Part shown: positions 56,377 through 63,100 of the stretch, in pieces
Position numbering within the stretch: position 1 is the first letter of the stretch
Layout: every line of letters begins with the position of its first letter
Source: a virus
Virus record (IMG/VR): IMGVR_UViG_3300035157_000753
Span: 23,201 to 87,200 of that record
DNA: 64,000 nucleotides
Reading direction: 5' to 3' (one strand)
Translations under genes and position numbers: made by a program
The notes under the pieces: model-generated
Told to the model about the DNA's origin: nothing
Databases searched by the model: none
Seen by the model: only the letters and a program-made list of their open reading frames with translations

Positions 56377-58670
56377 GATACTAATACTCCTTTACCTTGA
56401 TCGGAAATGACTAAGGTACGATCTTTAGTCACGTATACTTTTTCAACCATAGTTCTTGTAATGGTTTGTGGAATTGGGATAATCTGTGGTTGTTGCATAG
56501 ATTGTGAGAGAGCACTACCATTCTTTGTCAATTGACTTACTGGTGTATTATTAACCACATTTCTATTTTGAGGTGGATCAGATGGATCAACATGCTGTTT
56601 ATCAGAATCAAATCGATCAAAATTAGTAAGATTGTTCATTATCTTATCCACAGTACCAGTAAGCATTCTTGAAACGCCCGATACTGGTGATACAGTAACC
56701 GCACCTTTCTCATTACGTTGACCTTTCAAATAAGGTAAAGGATCTACCAATACACCATCCTTCTCAACCTCCAAATGTAAATGAGTATCCCCTATAGTAT
56801 TTACTCTACCTGTATAATCAACAACACCTTCTAAATTCTTTAATTTACCAATTCTCTGTCCCTTCTTAATCTCTTGCCCTGGATTTACACCAGAATGAAT
56901 ATGCATATATGTTGCCACTACACCATTACCATGGTCAATCCTTACATTTTCAGTATAAGCAGGATTTGGTAGATCTAAAGGTGCGACTACAACACCTCCA
57001 CGCATAGCTTTAACAGGTATCTCAGGATCACTACCATAAGGTTTTTTCTCTACAAGATCAAGTCCCTTATGACCACCTGGATATGATTCTCTAGGTCCAC
57101 CAAATCTTTGTCCCACTGTATGACCAATTACACCACCCTCCAAAGGATTTCCCCATGATGCACTGGAAGGTGTACTCTGTCCACTTATATCTTGAATGAA
57201 TTCTGATGCTCTAGCTTTAATATTTTCTGCAAATCCACCCTGAGCCACATTATTAGTCTCAGTATTACTTGCAACTACTTCAATTGTTTTAATTTCTGGC
57301 ATCTTCATCCTTGCAATACCACTAGTATCTTCAGATGTACCTACTATACTCTGAAGTGCTCTAGCTTCTGCCATTAATGATGCAGCTGCAGATGATCCTC
57401 TCAAAGGACCAAGAAATGCTATACTAGCACCTACCATTACAGATGCACCTTCTCTATAGACAGCAGAAATTGCATCACCAATTTTACTCATTGGTAGAAT
57501 CACTTCTGCTTCTTGTGCTTCACCAACTAATGCTTTAATTCCACCCAACATACCTCTTGTTGGAGAAGTTATTACTGCACCACCTGAACCACCACCAATT
57601 ACACTACCAATTCTATTCTTATTTGTCGGTCCATAACCATCTTTATATCCCCCACCGTCATATGCCTTGTCAATAATTACTTCACCTGTCTTATCACAAG
57701 CCATAGCACCCATTATTCCAGCACCCAACCACATAAGAGCACCAGCAGTTGTAGTCAATAGTTCAGGAGCTCCCATCAGTGGTCCACTAACAGGTAAAGT
57801 TGCATTAGCAGCTGCCATGAATCCTACAGTATTACAAGCAGTAGTTACCCCAGTTTCTATACCAGCTCTCAGGTTTGTCTTACCCTCTACGTTCGTCTTG
57901 TGTTGAAAATCCAGGAATGCAAGTCCAGCCTGTAAAAAATGACCACCCCCAGCTCTTATAGGTTTTGGTATCTTATTAAGTAAAGCTCCAGCATTTAAGT
58001 TTTTAGGATTAAGTCTCTTTAGGAACTGTGGTGCTTTTTTGACGGGGTTAAGTTTCCTAGCGGTATTTGCAAGATTTGTTCTCCATTTAGCATGTTTAGT
58101 CATCCATAAAGGACGATTAGGTATATTATCAGCTACTTTATGCCATTGTCTTAATAGAATATTAGCACCCTTCGGACTAGCTTTTGCCTTTCTCAACGCC
58201 TCTGTAACAGATATATTCTGACTTCTTAAATTTCTATAGACCTTAATCTGATTTCTAGTAAGACCATGCTTATTCATAAGCATAGCATTTGTTAGCCTCA
58301 TTCTTCTATTCTTTAAGAATTGAGCTCTTGTTAAAGGTTTCTTTGGTGGTCTACGGTATGGAACATAATCACCTGATCTAGGTTTTCTATTCCTCTTATC
58401 TCTTGCAAGATCGTAAATAGTTTTTGATCCTCGTCCAGCAGCAATACCCCCAGATCCATCATCAGATCCACGATTACGCAAGTAATTAATATAACTATAC
58501 TCAAGATCCAAATAACCTTCCATAGACTCACCAAATTTTTTAGTGGTCTTATATACATCTGTTAATGTAACCTTTGCCTTTTCCTCGGCACTAGCATATC
58601 CACCACCAAATCCAAGCAGTCCAGCAGTGAGTTGTAAAAGTTTATTTTTATCCTTGGGTTTGGTTGCCAT
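56373..58670 (-). CDS. Hub-associated protein with M23 peptidase domain
   Basis: The 765-residue product has a basic N-terminal third (PLTRAQFLKNRRMRLTNAML), a hydrophobic alanine-rich middle (GFMAAANATLPVSGPLMGAP, GALMWLGAGIMGAMACD), and an M23 (LytM-type) endopeptidase domain at about residues 515-645. Zinc-site motifs are H-K-G-L-D in YPGGHKGLDLVEK (about 531-535) and H-L-H in GDTHLHLEVEKDG (about 628), with YMHIHSG between. M23 enzymes cut peptide cross-bridges of peptidoglycan. It probably opens the cell wall during injection, replacing the lysozyme domain of T4 gp5. It shares its start with the stop of the 54-residue gene. Confidence 0.8.
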   Translation of the reverse strand: MATKPKDKNKLLQLTAGLLGFGGGYASAEEKAKVTLTDVYKTTKKFGESMEGYLDLEYSYINYLRNRGSDDGSGGIAAGRGSKTIYDLARDKRNRKPRSGDYVPYRRPPKKPLTRAQFLKNRRMRLTNAMLMNKHGLTRNQIKVYRNLRSQNISVTEALRKAKASPKGANILLRQWHKVADNIPNRPLWMTKHAKWRTNLANTARKLNPVKKAPQFLKRLNPKNLNAGALLNKIPKPIRAGGGHFLQAGLAFLDFQHKTNVEGKTNLRAGIETGVTTACNTVGFMAAANATLPVSGPLMGAPELLTTTAGALMWLGAGIMGAMACDKTGEVIIDKAYDGGGYKDGYGPTNKNRIGSVIGGGSGGAVITSPTRGMLGGIKALVGEAQEAEVILPMSKIGDAISAVYREGASVMVGASIAFLGPLRGSSAAASLMAEARALQSIVGTSEDTSGIARMKMPEIKTIEVVASNTETNNVAQGGFAENIKARASEFIQDISGQSTPSSASWGNPLEGGVIGHTVGQRFGGPRESYPGGHKGLDLVEKKPYGSDPEIPVKAMRGGVVVAPLDLPNPAYTENVRIDHGNGVVATYMHIHSGVNPGQEIKKGQRIGKLKNLEGVVDYTGRVNTIGDTHLHLEVEKDGVLVDPLPYLKGQRNEKGAVTVSPVSGVSRMLTGTVDKIMNNLTNFDRFDSDKQHVDPSDPPQNRNVVNNTPVSQLTKNGSALSQSMQQPQIIPIPQTITRTMVEKVYVTKDRTLVISDQGKGVLVS

Positions 58671-58834
58671 TAACGCTTACGTTTCTGTTCCTCTATTCGC
58701 TCCCTTTCTTTTTGTAAGTGAGCAGATAACAAATTCACGTATACTTCCCGTTCCCACGGGATCATATCATTAATATCAGTCAAGCTATATTTATGGTGTT
58801 GGACCAATGCAAAATTGGTTTGAAAGAAGGTCAT
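58670..58834 (-). CDS. Small protein next to gp26 (possible gp51-like)
   Basis: The 54-residue product MTFFQTNFALVQHHKYSLTD continues INDMIPWEREVYVNLLSAHL and a charged helical end. The DINDMIPWEREVYVxLL motif is found in short phage proteins from the gp26/gp51 or tail-chaperone position. T4 gp51, which assists hub assembly, is larger (249 residues), so the identity is uncertain. The stop shares one base with the M23 protein start (TAATG). Its start is 21 bp after the gp26 stop. Confidence 0.5.
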   Translation of the reverse strand: MTFFQTNFALVQHHKYSLTDINDMIPWEREVYVNLLSAHLQKERERIEEQKRKR

Positions 58835-58854: not shown

Positions 58855-59553
58855 CTATCCGAAAAAACTCACTAGACCCTCTATTACCACATCATTAGTA
58901 ACTCCTGTATTATGATTTTTAACCTTTAAACTATGCTTAAGGCTAGGCATTGTATTAAAGAATACCTGAATCTTATCAAACTGAGAGGCAGTTAGTGTTT
59001 CAACCCATTCCCTTGCTTCGTTAAAAGTAAAAGTACCTGCTGATTCCTTCCCAACATAAACATTCTTAATACACTTAGCTACTAAATCATATGGATCTAC
59101 TTCATCTTCTGAGAAGTTAACCTTAGAGAAATACTCTAAATTTGGATATCTCATCTCAATAGTAACATCATTCTCAAGTTTAACTAGATTACTATGACCT
59201 TCTGGGAACTGTACCTTAACATCATCTACCAAGAAATTAACATTAACTTCAGTCTCACCATCATCAGGACATGTAATCTTCAGTTCAAGTTTTTCACTAA
59301 TTGATCTAGCACGTATTTGAAGAAATAGATACTCAATATCAAACAAAGCAAGATCATCTATCCTTATTCTAGTATTGATACAATTTTTTAATATAGTCTT
59401 AATTGCTTCTAAAATCTGTTCTTCGTCTTGCGATTCTAACGCAATAATCAAAACCTTCTGTTCTTTTACCAAGAAGGGTCTGTATTTAATTTTCTTTTTT
59501 GTAGAAGGCACCACCAACTCATAGGTTGGTGTAACAATTTCAGGTAACGGCAT
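58855..59553 (-). CDS. 26: Baseplate hub subunit gp26
   Basis: The 232-residue product fits gp26 (T4: 208). The N-terminus (MPLPEIVTPTYELVVPSTKK, then IKYRPFLVKEQKVLIIALES) and ELKITCPDDGETEVNVNFLV with MRYPNLEYFS are typical of the T4-type hub family. In T4 gp26 helps complete the central hub. It lies 18 bp after gp54 and just before the small possible gp51-like gene. Confidence 0.85.
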   Translation of the reverse strand: MPLPEIVTPTYELVVPSTKKKIKYRPFLVKEQKVLIIALESQDEEQILEAIKTILKNCINTRIRIDDLALFDIEYLFLQIRARSISEKLELKITCPDDGETEVNVNFLVDDVKVQFPEGHSNLVKLENDVTIEMRYPNLEYFSKVNFSEDEVDPYDLVAKCIKNVYVGKESAGTFTFNEAREWVETLTASQFDKIQVFFNTMPSLKHSLKVKNHNTGVTNDVVIEGLVSFFG

Positions 59554-59571
59554 AATTTATGTTCCTAGTGA

Positions 59572-60357
59572 TTAAGCTCCAGATGGCCACTGGAATTGGA
59601 AAGTTTGATACTCATAATAAAAACCAACAGACACTCTAACTAACTCAGACTGTCCACTATTATAAGGTACAGAAGACATTGAATATGGATATGCATTTTC
59701 TAATCTTGCTTTAAATGAAACATCATACTTCTTAGGTCTTTTATCAACGTTTTTAGCTGCCTTAGCATCCCATACTGATTCTTTTGGTACTCCAAACTTT
59801 TCAAGTTTGTTTATAGTTATACCACATGTATAATCATCATAATATTGTTGAGCATATGCTTTATGCTTATTCTTATGATAATTTGAATTAACAGAATAAA
59901 GAGTATCCTGTTCTTGGGCAGCAGCTGCATCCCTAAATCCCAAATGCCAATTTCCCATGATCATATCTTGCCATGCCCTAAAGAATGACAAGGGAGTGGA
60001 ATTTAAGTCACAATAAAACTGTACATCTAGCTCATTATATACTTTACCAGATACCATCTTCTGTGTCAACCCTTTATGGGGTGACTTAATATCAGATGCA
60101 GTCATATCAACACCAGGTATCTGAATCTCACTACAGAGCATATTTAATTTATAATTTCCAGCATTAACAGGATCGGCGGCCGCCGACACATTCTGACCAT
60201 ATCTCGTACCCATATTGGCCATTACGAAACTTGAAAACTGTGGAGTTGGTTCAATGTCAAAAGAATAAAGATTGGATGCGGATATACCCTTACCCAATAT
60301 CTGATTCGTGAAATTATCAATAGTGAACTTATCCTTTGGGTCTATCCTCTTTGACAT
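59572..60357 (-). CDS. 54: Baseplate-tail tube initiator gp54
   Basis: The 261-residue product has a tail-tube-like pattern: LNMLCSEIQIPGVDMTASDI near residues 70-89, YNELDVQFYCDLNSTPLSFF and RAWQDMIMG near 105-140, and LVRVSVGFYYEYQTF near the end. gp54 binds the hub and starts polymerisation of gp19. The size (T4: 320) and its position divergent from gp4 match cyanophage gp54; gp48 is assigned separately at 61224. Its late promoter overlaps the gp4 start codon. Confidence 0.7.
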   Translation of the reverse strand: MSKRIDPKDKFTIDNFTNQILGKGISASNLYSFDIEPTPQFSSFVMANMGTRYGQNVSAAADPVNAGNYKLNMLCSEIQIPGVDMTASDIKSPHKGLTQKMVSGKVYNELDVQFYCDLNSTPLSFFRAWQDMIMGNWHLGFRDAAAAQEQDTLYSVNSNYHKNKHKAYAQQYYDDYTCGITINKLEKFGVPKESVWDAKAAKNVDKRPKKYDVSFKARLENAYPYSMSSVPYNSGQSELVRVSVGFYYEYQTFQFQWPSGA

Positions 60358-60362
60358 AAATA
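60355..60362 (+). promoter_or_regulatory. Late promoter for gp4, overlapping the gp54 start codon
   Basis: CATAAATA on the plus strand lies 27 bp before the gp4 ATG. Its first three bases are the reverse complement of the gp54 start codon. One mismatch from TATAAATA, but cyanophage late promoters tolerate a variable first base. Confidence 0.7.
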
Positions 60363-60384
60363 TTTTCTATGGTGTGACCTCTTT

Positions 60385-60392
60385 TATTTATG
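60385..60392 (-). promoter_or_regulatory. Late promoter for gp54, overlapping the gp4 start codon
   Basis: The minus strand reads CATAAATA, 27 bp before the gp54 ATG. The CAT is the complement of the gp4 start codon. With the plus-strand element at 60355 it forms a mirror-like divergent pair. Confidence 0.7.
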
Positions 60393-60830
60393 CCCTCATA
60401 TAAAGGAAAATACAAGGTACGAAACTACCGTAAGTATAAGGGAGACCCCACTGAGGTTGTCTACCGTTCCCTTTGGGAAAAGAAATTCATGGATTATTGC
60501 GATTCTAGCAAGAATATCCTAGAGTGGTCAAGTGAAGAATATGTTATACCATATAAAGATCCTGTACAAAAGAAGTGGAGAAGATATTTTCCAGATTTCT
60601 ATATGAAAGTACGGGAAGCAAATGGAAAGATATCCAAATACTTAGTTGAGGTTAAACCAAAAAGACAGGTCGATGGTCCTAAACCTCAAAAAAGAAAAAC
60701 CAAACAATATATAACTGAGGTAATGACATATGCCACCAACAAGGCAAAGTGGGAAGCAGCAGAGCAATACTGCAGGGACAGGCTTTGGAAGTTCAAGCTC
60801 ATCACTGAAGTCGAGCTCAAAATTTACTAG
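60390..60830 (+). CDS. 4: Head completion protein gp4
   Basis: The 146-residue product matches gp4 (T4 gp4 = gp50/65, 150 residues). MPSYKGKYKVRNYRKYKGDP, then SLWEKKFMDYCD, YFPDFYMKVREANGKISKYL and VEVKPKRQ are typical. The D...E-V-K pattern (PDFY...LVEVKPK) is a PD-(D/E)XK nuclease-like core, in line with the idea that gp4 trims packaged DNA ends and closes the head. It is the first of four plus-strand late genes. Confidence 0.9.
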   Translation: MPSYKGKYKVRNYRKYKGDPTEVVYRSLWEKKFMDYCDSSKNILEWSSEEYVIPYKDPVQKKWRRYFPDFYMKVREANGKISKYLVEVKPKRQVDGPKPQKRKTKQYITEVMTYATNKAKWEAAEQYCRDRLWKFKLITEVELKIY

Positions 60831-61224
60831 TCTGATTCAAAGTTTAAAAGGAAAATCAATAACTAAGACCAAATTACGAGATACAGTATTCAATAGATTA
60901 TTAGATGATGCTGTTGAAACTCCAGAAGAAGGTAAGTATTACTTCTTTGACTATGATCCAAAATTCAAAAGTGTATTGAAAGAATGGGATCAATTTCCTC
61001 TCATCAAAGTACTTGAAGTTAAAGGTAATATATACTTGGGTGCGAATCTACATTACATTAAAAGCAATGCTAGATTAAGTGCGATAAATAATAAGAAGTA
61101 TCCTGCTGAAACTCTACACTATTACATACCTAAGAATGCTGACGACATTTTCTTTGAGGTATCTGAAGAGGATATACAAGTACTAAGTCAACTACCCCTA
61201 GAGAAATTTCATCGTAACAAGTAA
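60730..61224 (+). CDS. Conserved-type protein between gp4 and gp48, function unknown
   Basis: The 164-residue product begins MPPTRQSGKQQSNTAGTGFG, with a Ser/Lys-rich stretch (SSSSSLKSSSKFTSLIQSLK). The ordered part has VETPEEGKYYFFDYDPKFKS, LKEWDQFPLIKVLEVKGNIY, LGANLHYIKSNARLSAINNK and ETLHYYIPK. The motif D-FPL...LG-NLHY recurs in T4-like phages near head-completion genes. It could be a relative of DNA-end protector gp2, which neighbours gp4 in T4, but I cannot confirm that. It overlaps the gp4 coding end by 101 bases; an in-frame non-ATG start further downstream is the alternative. Confidence 0.6.
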   Translation: MPPTRQSGKQQSNTAGTGFGSSSSSLKSSSKFTSLIQSLKGKSITKTKLRDTVFNRLLDDAVETPEEGKYYFFDYDPKFKSVLKEWDQFPLIKVLEVKGNIYLGANLHYIKSNARLSAINNKKYPAETLHYYIPKNADDIFFEVSEEDIQVLSQLPLEKFHRNK

Positions 61225-62483
61225 TGACTGCAGGAAATCATGCATACCCTAGGACAATAACCCAGATTCCATATGCATCATTTATGAGAATTACTAAATG
61301 GTCATATAATAAAGGTATGGCTGAAGTTGGTGCAGCTCAGAATGATGCTTTAGGATCTATACAAAATAGTGGTCTTGTAAAAGATGTAGCAGATGGATTG
61401 AGCAATAATGCAAAATGGGCATACGGAATAGGTGGCAACCCATATGCAAAAGATTTTAAAGATAAAGAAGGAAACGTACTAACTGGAGAAGCTGAACAAG
61501 CAGCTGCCATCGAACTAGCAAGGCAAAGAAATCGTAGTGTTGCTAATGGAAATAGTACTTTCAGAGCTGGTGTGGAGGATGTTAAGTTTGAAGACACAAC
61601 TACTGATGAAGAGTACTTAAAAATGCCATTTGAGGGTAGACAAGGTAAAATGACTACCCTTGAAGAAACTTTAGCCAAGAAAAATAAAGTAAGGGAATTT
61701 AATGATGCTGGATATAAACAAAAACACTGTAATTTAGCACTACCAAATGAATTTCAATACCAATATGGTGCTAACTGGGGCAATACCTTTAAGTTAGGTA
61801 CGATGGCTCTATTAGCTGATGATCCAAAACGTGCTGCTACTGTTGGTGGTTTGGGTGGTATTCTTGGTGCAGGTGGAGGATACCTTAAAGGTCTTATTAA
61901 AGACAGTGGCACAGGAAAGGATAGTACATTAGCAAGACTATCAGAAGGATTCGGATCAGGTGCTAAAAAAGCTACTGACTTATGGAATGTCAACTCAACT
62001 ATTACAGACCCAACTAATATTGTTGGTCTAGCTGGATTAGCACCTAATGAGAATGCTATACAGTTCTTTAAAAAGATGGAGTTTAGACAATTTGAACTAA
62101 ACTTTGAATTTGCAGCAAGAAATAAAGATGAATCTAAGGATATTCAAGACATTATTAAATGGTTCAAAATAGGTATGCACCCAGTATCACAAGATCCACT
62201 AGGTAAAGGTAGTGGAGTGTTACTTGGTTTCCCAGATGTATTTGTATTAGAACCTCAGTTTGTACCAGTAGGAAAAGCAGGAGTAGTACAAAAATCAGAA
62301 CCCCACAAAATGATGCCAAAAACAAAACTTTGTGCTTTGGCTAGTTTAAGTGTTAATGCCACTCCTTTCGGAACAGTAAATACTGTTCATGATGGTACTA
62401 TACCACTCATCACCGTTACTATGAGATTCAATGAACTAACTGCTCTAACCAGATCAGATTTCTTAAACGACGAATTATTCTAA
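61224..62483 (+). CDS. 48: Baseplate tail tube cap gp48
   Basis: The 419-residue product is near the size of T4 gp48 (364). The C-terminal region (FEFAARNKDESKDIQDIIKW, FPDVFVLEPQFVPVG, LCALASLSVNATPFGTVNTV, ITVTMRFNELTALTRSD) is the tube-like domain shared by gp48, gp54 and gp19. The N-terminus (YPRTITQIPYASFMRITKWS) and central glycine-rich segment (GGLGGILGAGGGYLKG) are common in cyanophage gp48. It overlaps both neighbours by one base, giving TAATG junctions. Confidence 0.8.
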   Translation: MTAGNHAYPRTITQIPYASFMRITKWSYNKGMAEVGAAQNDALGSIQNSGLVKDVADGLSNNAKWAYGIGGNPYAKDFKDKEGNVLTGEAEQAAAIELARQRNRSVANGNSTFRAGVEDVKFEDTTTDEEYLKMPFEGRQGKMTTLEETLAKKNKVREFNDAGYKQKHCNLALPNEFQYQYGANWGNTFKLGTMALLADDPKRAATVGGLGGILGAGGGYLKGLIKDSGTGKDSTLARLSEGFGSGAKKATDLWNVNSTITDPTNIVGLAGLAPNENAIQFFKKMEFRQFELNFEFAARNKDESKDIQDIIKWFKIGMHPVSQDPLGKGSGVLLGFPDVFVLEPQFVPVGKAGVVQKSEPHKMMPKTKLCALASLSVNATPFGTVNTVHDGTIPLITVTMRFNELTALTRSDFLNDELF

Positions 62484-63100
62484 TGTTACTCAAGAACCTA
62501 CCAGATCTATTCTATAATATAGCTAAGTCTCCTGTAGATGTTCATTTGCTTCATGCAAAGAATCTATGGCAAAGATCTGAGGTATTGCCAGAATTCATTA
62601 ATAGTATTACTTTGTTTGATGAGTACATTGTAAGAAACGGTGAAACTCCAGAAACTATTTCAAATGGAATCTATGGTACTCCATTTTATAATTGGACACT
62701 TCTGATCGCTAATGATATAGTAAATTACTATGAGCAATGGCCAAAATCAACTTTACATCTGAATCAGTTTGTAAGTAACAAATATAAAAACCCACAAGCA
62801 ACAAAGCACTATGTGACTACTGAAGTCAAAAACACTGCTGGTAATATAATTATTCCAGCAGGAAAAGTAGTACCATCAAACTACTCAGTAAGTTATATTG
62901 ATAATGGTATTAATGTTACAGCGAATCCAGTCGTATCCATTACCAATTATCAATATGAAGAGGAGATTAATGGTAGGAAAGAAAAAATTAAAATCATACG
63001 TCCTAGTCTCATAGCAGACTTCGTTGAAACGTATTATAGACGAATTAATAAAAATGGTATTATGACCGTTGCTAACACGGCATTTGAGATAAAAATGTAA
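62483..63100 (+). CDS. 53: Baseplate wedge subunit gp53
   Basis: The 205-residue product matches gp53 (T4: 196). YNIAKSPVDVHLLHAKNLWQ near the N-terminus, FDEYIVRNGETPETISNGIY and TPFYNWTLLIANDIVNYYEQ and WP near residues 50-90 form the conserved LysM-like domain, and VETYYRRINKNGIM lies near the end. gp53 fastens adjacent wedges around the hub. It ends the plus-strand operon before a bidirectional terminator. Confidence 0.88.
   Translation: MLLKNLPDLFYNIAKSPVDVHLLHAKNLWQRSEVLPEFINSITLFDEYIVRNGETPETISNGIYGTPFYNWTLLIANDIVNYYEQWPKSTLHLNQFVSNKYKNPQATKHYVTTEVKNTAGNIIIPAGKVVPSNYSVSYIDNGINVTANPVVSITNYQYEEEINGRKEKIKIIRPSLIADFVETYYRRINKNGIMTVANTAFEIKM

Follow-up and report, generated by a model that had tools for sequence, protein, structure and literature searches.

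Two T4-type late promoters have most probably been compacted at positions 60355-60392 of the window (the whole 64,000-nucleotide stretch of viral DNA analysed here, which belongs to an 87.2-kb virus record; record-wide counts use all 87.2 kb), until the −10 element of each sits on the start codon of the opposite gene. The arrangement is a real, conserved feature, and it is an extreme variant of the late-promoter pairs carried by T4 itself. Its source is a T4-like cyanophage whose nearest named phages, by gp4 and the surrounding DNA, are P-HM1, P-HM2 and MED4-213. A search of titles and abstracts returned no description of facing late promoters at the gp4 junction; older T4 work in subscription journals was outside its scope.

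Anatomy of the gp4 junction

The octamer CATAAATA occurs once on each strand of this 38-bp unit. The gp4-directed copy lies at 60355..60362 on the plus strand and corresponds to a conserved N[AC]TAAATA in the relatives; the copy directed towards the left gene lies at 60385..60392 on the minus strand (it reads from 60392 to 60385) and corresponds to what we call the facing motif. The two octamers are separate, with 22 bp between them. The CAT of the plus-strand octamer (60355-60357) is the complement of the ATG of the left gene, which starts at 60357, and the CAT of the minus-strand octamer is the complement of the ATG of gp4 (60390-60392). From the end of each octamer to the ATG of its own gene there are 27 nt on either side. 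The preliminary description had reported both this reciprocal overlap and the equal spacing, and the coordinates confirm them. It had also called the promoters divergent; however, the −10 elements are outermost and the predicted transcript starts lie inside, so that the promoters point at each other and only the genes diverge.

The gp4 gene (60390..60830, plus strand) encodes a head closure protein (phrog_218, E 1.2e-56) and is the first gene of the plus-strand operon gp4-gp2-gp48-gp53, in which the genes downstream of gp4 match the families of the DNA end protector (gp2), the tail tube cap (gp48) and the baseplate wedge (gp53). The left gene (59572..60357, minus strand) encodes a tail-tube family protein (phrog_45, matched by all 18 left-gene proteins scanned) and heads a minus-strand operon in which it is followed by a baseplate hub match and then by a peptidase-like protein. 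By family assignment, both flanking genes encode virion proteins. As listed, the gp2 ORF overlaps the end of gp4 by 101 nt (window positions 60730-60830); the annotated gp2/gp4 overlap is 65 nt in P-HM1 and 1 nt in T4, and the true gp2 start may lie further inside the listed ORF. In the window (59572-63100), P-HM1, P-SSM2 and others, gp4 is oriented with gp48-gp53; in S-SM1, S-SSM5, P-SSM7 and S-CAM22 it lies with GC334-gp26 and faces gp48-gp53. In both layouts its 5' end is a strand switch carrying late motifs (loci L083-L089 and L091-L097).

Position and conservation of the late motifs

On both strands the window octamers are close to the T4 octamer TATAAATA and fit NATAAATA, which has been described for the late promoters of S-PM2, Syn9 and other cyanophages and whose first base is free (PMC2984593). 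The same report describes g33, g45 and g55 as present in cyanomyoviruses (PMC2984593). P-HM1 encodes gp55, gp45 and gp44, according to its annotation and blastp matches to T4, so the closest relatives of the source phage have the components of the T4 late system available. The Pfam model PF02916 for gp45 gave no match in three records nor in the controls, and is hence uninformative. A T4-type late promoter needs no −35 element. Sigma-70-like sites in 59500-61300 were rarer than in shuffles (3 versus 7.9) and none fell within the 38 bp; sigma-70 promoters were therefore tentatively set aside. Judged by their letters, both octamers look like T4-type late promoters.

As a word, CATAAATA is not enriched in the window, where it was found three times against 5.5 expected from shuffles. 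The case rests on position and conservation. The third copy (58788-58795, minus strand) lies inside a 54-aa gp51-like minus-strand ORF (58670..58834); it is probably no promoter, because it stands within that ORF and more than 100 nt before the next start. Across the 87.2-kb record the degenerate motif N[AC]TAAATA occurs at 9.7e-5 per strand position, which gives a chance of ~7e-6 that both members of a given gene pair have a site in the 27 nt upstream. An ATG follows 14-40 nt downstream of eight of its 17 sites in the record (0.56 expected; 0 with the motif turned round), of 26 of 55 in P-HM1 (2.4 expected; 1 turned round) and, for NATAAATA, of 28 of 65 in T4 (3.6 expected; 5 turned round). 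The site-to-start distances are 19-27 nt for most sites in the record and mostly 21-29 nt in T4. Inside the two flanking genes the motif occurred four times in 49,600 strand positions across 31 representative junctions (defined below).

We also asked, for each mechanically called ORF with an ATG start and a length of 100 aa or more, whether an opposing late motif lies at its start codon. The record has two such cases among 51 ORFs, exactly gp4 and the left gene; P-HM1 has one among 158, the left gene of its gp4 junction, where gp4 starts with GTG and hence falls outside the tested ORFs; and T4 has two among 178, neither at g4/g53. The ATG-only gene caller behind the site-to-start and Shine-Dalgarno counts drops some overlapping genes, and its list of divergent pairs is incomplete in that it missed the gp4 of the record and the GTG-started gp4 of P-HM1. 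The bare pattern TAAATA-N{0,30}-TATTTA, which was matched in 14 of 16 records searched, occurs once each in the record, P-HM1 and MED4-213, always at the gp4 junction. However, it is weak evidence because the reversed control is at least as frequent in several genomes (in T4, 6 versus 12 reversed). The pair of late motifs at the gp4 junction is not due to chance.

To examine relatives, we took the best 80 of 123 IMG/VR loci from a gp4 search, 77 of which are uncut at the junction. Among these, the gp4-directed N[AC]TAAATA is present in 77 of 77 and both motifs in 67; the ten junctions that lack the facing motif form one group (L071-L081 less L077). Named cyanophages show the gp4-directed motif in 14 of 14 and the facing motif in 12 of 14, the exceptions being S-T4 and S-SSM7. 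Because the facing motif is missing from that IMG/VR group and from these two phages, the left operon can evidently do without it. Two further cyanophages, ACG-2014e and ACG-2014f, carry both motifs, the facing motif of ACG-2014e sitting 53 nt from the annotated left start. In the close relatives P-HM1, P-HM2 and MED4-213, where absence would have told against the preliminary description, both motifs were found. With the left protein as query, a single locus was recovered, on the same contig as L002.

For counts less affected by redundancy, the first member of each cluster at 90% gp4 nucleotide identity was taken, giving 31 representatives out of 91 loci; L025, L051 and L077 (junction cut by contig end) and L097 were left out. 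All 31 have the gp4-directed motif and 29 have the facing motif, and the mean identity at fourfold sites of gp4 across the set is 43%. The left start codon lies fully inside the gp4-directed octamer in 18 of the 31 and the gp4 start codon inside the facing octamer in 15; in eight, both start codons are overlapped by octamers. These counts and the octamer-to-start distances depend on the choice of starts, because several differ from annotation: for gp4 of S-SM1 and S-BM3 we used the in-frame start adjoining the junction, and the left-gene starts of P-HM2, P-SSM7, S-SSM5 and S-T4 were chosen by script, nearer the junction than annotated. A gp4 tree built from 30 rows, P-HM2 excluded, requires five changes in the double-overlap state, at least three of them forced by well-supported branches; with P-HM2 there are five changes, four of them forced. 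The double overlap in P-HM2 itself holds if its left gene starts at the in-frame ATG adjoining the junction and not at the annotated one. In other words, double start-codon overlap is recurrent and optional.

The gp4 start region takes the forms TATTTATG, TATTTATC-ATG, TATTTAGT-ATG and TATTTATA-GTG, with TATTTA constant. The interlock had been thought to leave neither promoter nor start codon free to change. This was too strong, as both start codons and octamer letters do change in relatives: gp4 may start as TATTTATC-ATG or TATTTATA-GTG, and octamers reading TCTAAATA or CCTAAATA occur. By contrast, the proposal that each octamer acts as a late promoter for the gene on its own side gains support from the typical distance to the start, the enrichment of the motif class and the conservation of letters outside the codons, all of which suggest promoter activity. 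The gp4 of P-HM2 (L084, 3390-3851) is 58% identical to that of P-HM1 (L083, 2998-3432), and the junction is almost identical, as if gp4 had been swapped just downstream of the promoter pair. A frameshift had been considered for this gene and was wrong, as it is an intact divergent allele.

Geometry and possible coupling of the two promoters

In T4, the late octamer occupies −13 to −6 from the transcript start (PMC1524935). By this rule the transcripts would start at 60368 (plus strand) and 60379 (minus strand), so that the two RNAs would overlap and their first ~12 nt would be complementary. With these predicted starts, either −10 occupies about +18 to +25 as counted from the start of the other promoter, and would be traversed by the transcript that begins there. 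The TATGGTGTGACC core (60368..60379, assigned to no strand) exactly spans the stretch between the two predicted starts; it is kept in many relatives, not in all, and is partial in S-CAM22 and P-SSM7.

We propose that each octamer would be read by a gp55-type late sigma factor on the host RNA polymerase, that the sliding clamp would activate each promoter, and that each octamer would direct the operon whose start codon lies ~27 nt downstream. The start codons are separated by only 32 bp, which brings each −10 onto the opposite one; if the gap were to shrink from 47 to 32 bp at a constant octamer-to-start distance, each −10 would come to lie on the opposite ATG. The overlap is presumably tolerated because the first base of the octamer is free (NATAAATA), which lets the first three positions accommodate a start-codon CAT. 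It would be cheap because the leaders keep no strong Shine-Dalgarno site. Strong sites of this kind precede 8 of 58 ORFs in the record, 32 of 161 in P-HM1 and 80 of 207 in T4 (6-8% in shuffled controls), and none at normal spacing was seen by eye at the window junction. An extended Shine-Dalgarno reading of GGTGTGACC was discarded, since it seemed to stand too far from the ATG. So was a two-codon upstream ORF (ATG GTG TGA) within the core, which was seen by eye in the window and several relatives, and is absent from L021, L057 and L065.

Two polymerases should not hold open complexes at once on this unit, and simultaneous occupancy of both promoters looks impossible. Competition between the transcripts, as previously suggested for this junction, is a reasonable expectation that follows from the geometry only. 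Whether the interlock has any consequence is another matter. There is about an even chance that it reflects pure compaction, an explanation that concerns the meaning of the unit and not its parts: both promoters would work, and the interlock would be a by-product of start codons 30-40 bp apart. Each −10 would simply stand some 27 nt upstream of its gene and polymerases would rarely collide, so that no regulatory coupling would arise. The octamer-to-start distances of the 31 representatives indeed cluster, with medians of 28 and 27 nt and a range of 21-35 nt, and the arrangements among T4-like phages run from facing pairs to back-to-back ones. We also compared 34 junctions, consisting of 25 of the 29 two-motif cyanophage representatives (without L019, L032, L041 and L055) and nine others (three T4 junctions and six other phages), and the inter-octamer distance falls as the gap between the genes grows (r −0.87), which speaks for compaction. 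Within the 25 cyanophage junctions, however, this distance is unrelated to the gap (r 0.03, spread 2.9 nt), and therefore the pair may be a unit, an argument weakened by relatedness and by an equally small spread of the gap. A fixed −10 spacing as a selected trait was not retained, as it is suggestive within cyanophages and inseparable from relatedness. The bidirectional promoters of E. coli bear on compaction in both directions: as described in PMC12825309, there is no competition at basal activity, whereas substantial activation of one direction can repress the divergent RNA, and activation at T4 late promoters is strong.

The opposite explanation is that competition is the function, mutual exclusion serving to balance the head-closure operon against the opposite baseplate/tail operon. 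The predicted footprints overlap, and facing pairs recur at the 5' end of gp4 though the opposite gene differs. Yet the facing motif has been lost in one IMG/VR group, S-T4 and S-SSM7, and two T4-like junctions have octamers that overlap or stand back to back. We consider such a function unlikely, at perhaps half the plausibility of a by-product of compaction.

A more specific possibility is that the interlocked pair acts as a direction switch. In T4 late promoters, the orientation of the activating clamp sets the direction of transcription (PMC2988020), and the clamp is loaded at a nick in the non-transcribed strand or at a primer-template junction downstream of the promoter. As only one polymerase fits on the unit and clamp orientation sets the T4 late direction, the polarity of replication-loaded clamps might pick the operon round by round and so balance the two virion modules. 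We regard this as speculative and improbable.

Lastly, the conserved letters might belong to another element, for example a site of protein binding or recombination centred on the GGTGTGACC core, or 5' ends that overlap and act as mutual antisense RNAs. A core with GTGACC recurs where gp4 faces another gene (S-CAM22 and P-SSM7), and the orientation of gp4 relative to gp48-gp53 varies. However, the core is not kept in P-SSM2, L068 and S-CREM1, and RNA structure was no better than in shuffles in the four leader stretches folded (two from the window, one each from L010 and L055; z −0.67 to 0.41). Moreover, both the letters and the distances that are conserved match late promoters, and we consider this last explanation very improbable.

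If two T4-type late promoters are interlocked as we propose, the unit would offer a compact natural test of what follows when only one of two strongly activated promoters can be occupied at a time, and of a possible control of late transcription direction by clamp polarity in vivo. The unit further illustrates the degree of compression open to a viral genome whose promoter and start-codon letters chance to be compatible. Should nothing but compaction be involved, it would be an elegant but unexceptional example of signals that overlap.

Comparison with T4 and other promoter pairs

Facing late promoters at the 5' end of gp4 recur from coliphage T4 to marine cyanophages although the opposite gene changes, being g53 in T4 and gp48 or a tail-tube-family gene in cyanophages. 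The T4 g4/g53 junction (NC_000866, 77338-77384) shares with the window a gp4 at a strand switch and one late octamer per strand, face to face; its opposing TATAAATA octamers lie 28 and 26 nt from the ATGs, compared with 27 and 27 nt in the window, where the opposite gene is of the tail-tube family. It differs in that the gap is 47 bp, the octamers are 7 bp apart and inside the gap, and Shine-Dalgarno-like sites lie outside the octamers; there is no start-codon overlap and no predicted RNA overlap. T4 also has octamer pairs at inh/segE and g26/g51, that is, at three of eight divergent pairs called in all. These closely packed two-strand octamers lie near 77337-77385 (g4/g53), 112007-112057 (inh/segE) and 116428-116479 (g26/g51).

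We also examined nine divergent gp4 junctions of non-cyanophage T4-like phages, namely T4 and eight others hand-picked from 60 spread over 2,489 matching records; Sinorhizobium phage Phosso, whose gp4 is co-directional with its neighbour, was left uncounted. Both strict motifs are present in six of the nine (T4, Thanatos-2, AB-Navy-v2, Yersinia P8, Aeromonas avDM12 and Vibrio D485). The other three, which count against a two-promoter model, do not have the full pair of strict motifs: Vibrio D509 and Klebsiella Matisse have the left-directed motif only, and Stenotrophomonas Bhz51 has no strict motif, with weak matches only. Four of the six two-motif junctions are face to face; the octamers overlap in avDM12 and stand back to back in D485. 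No start codon is overlapped by an octamer at any of these nine junctions. Opposite gp4 stands gp53 in T4, Matisse, Thanatos-2, AB-Navy-v2 and P8, gp48 in D485, D509, Bhz51 and the cyanophages S-SM1, S-SSM5, P-SSM7 and S-CAM22, and a gene of the tail-tube family in the window and elsewhere; for P-RSM1 and avDM12 the annotation says only hypothetical.

The cyanophage late promoters described in PMC2984593 share with the window the octamer and its position upstream of late structural genes; that report presents them as single upstream motifs, whereas the window has a facing pair. The bidirectional promoters of E. coli, as described in PMC12825309, resemble the unit in that one short stretch serves both directions and one binding event excludes the other. 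In those promoters, however, the starts lie on either side of, or within, one shared −10, the feature by which Warman and colleagues define a bidirectional promoter. The window unit shares no −10; two separate −10 elements flank its predicted starts. The overlapping octamers of T4 g26/g51 and Aeromonas avDM12 come closer to the shared −10 geometry of E. coli.
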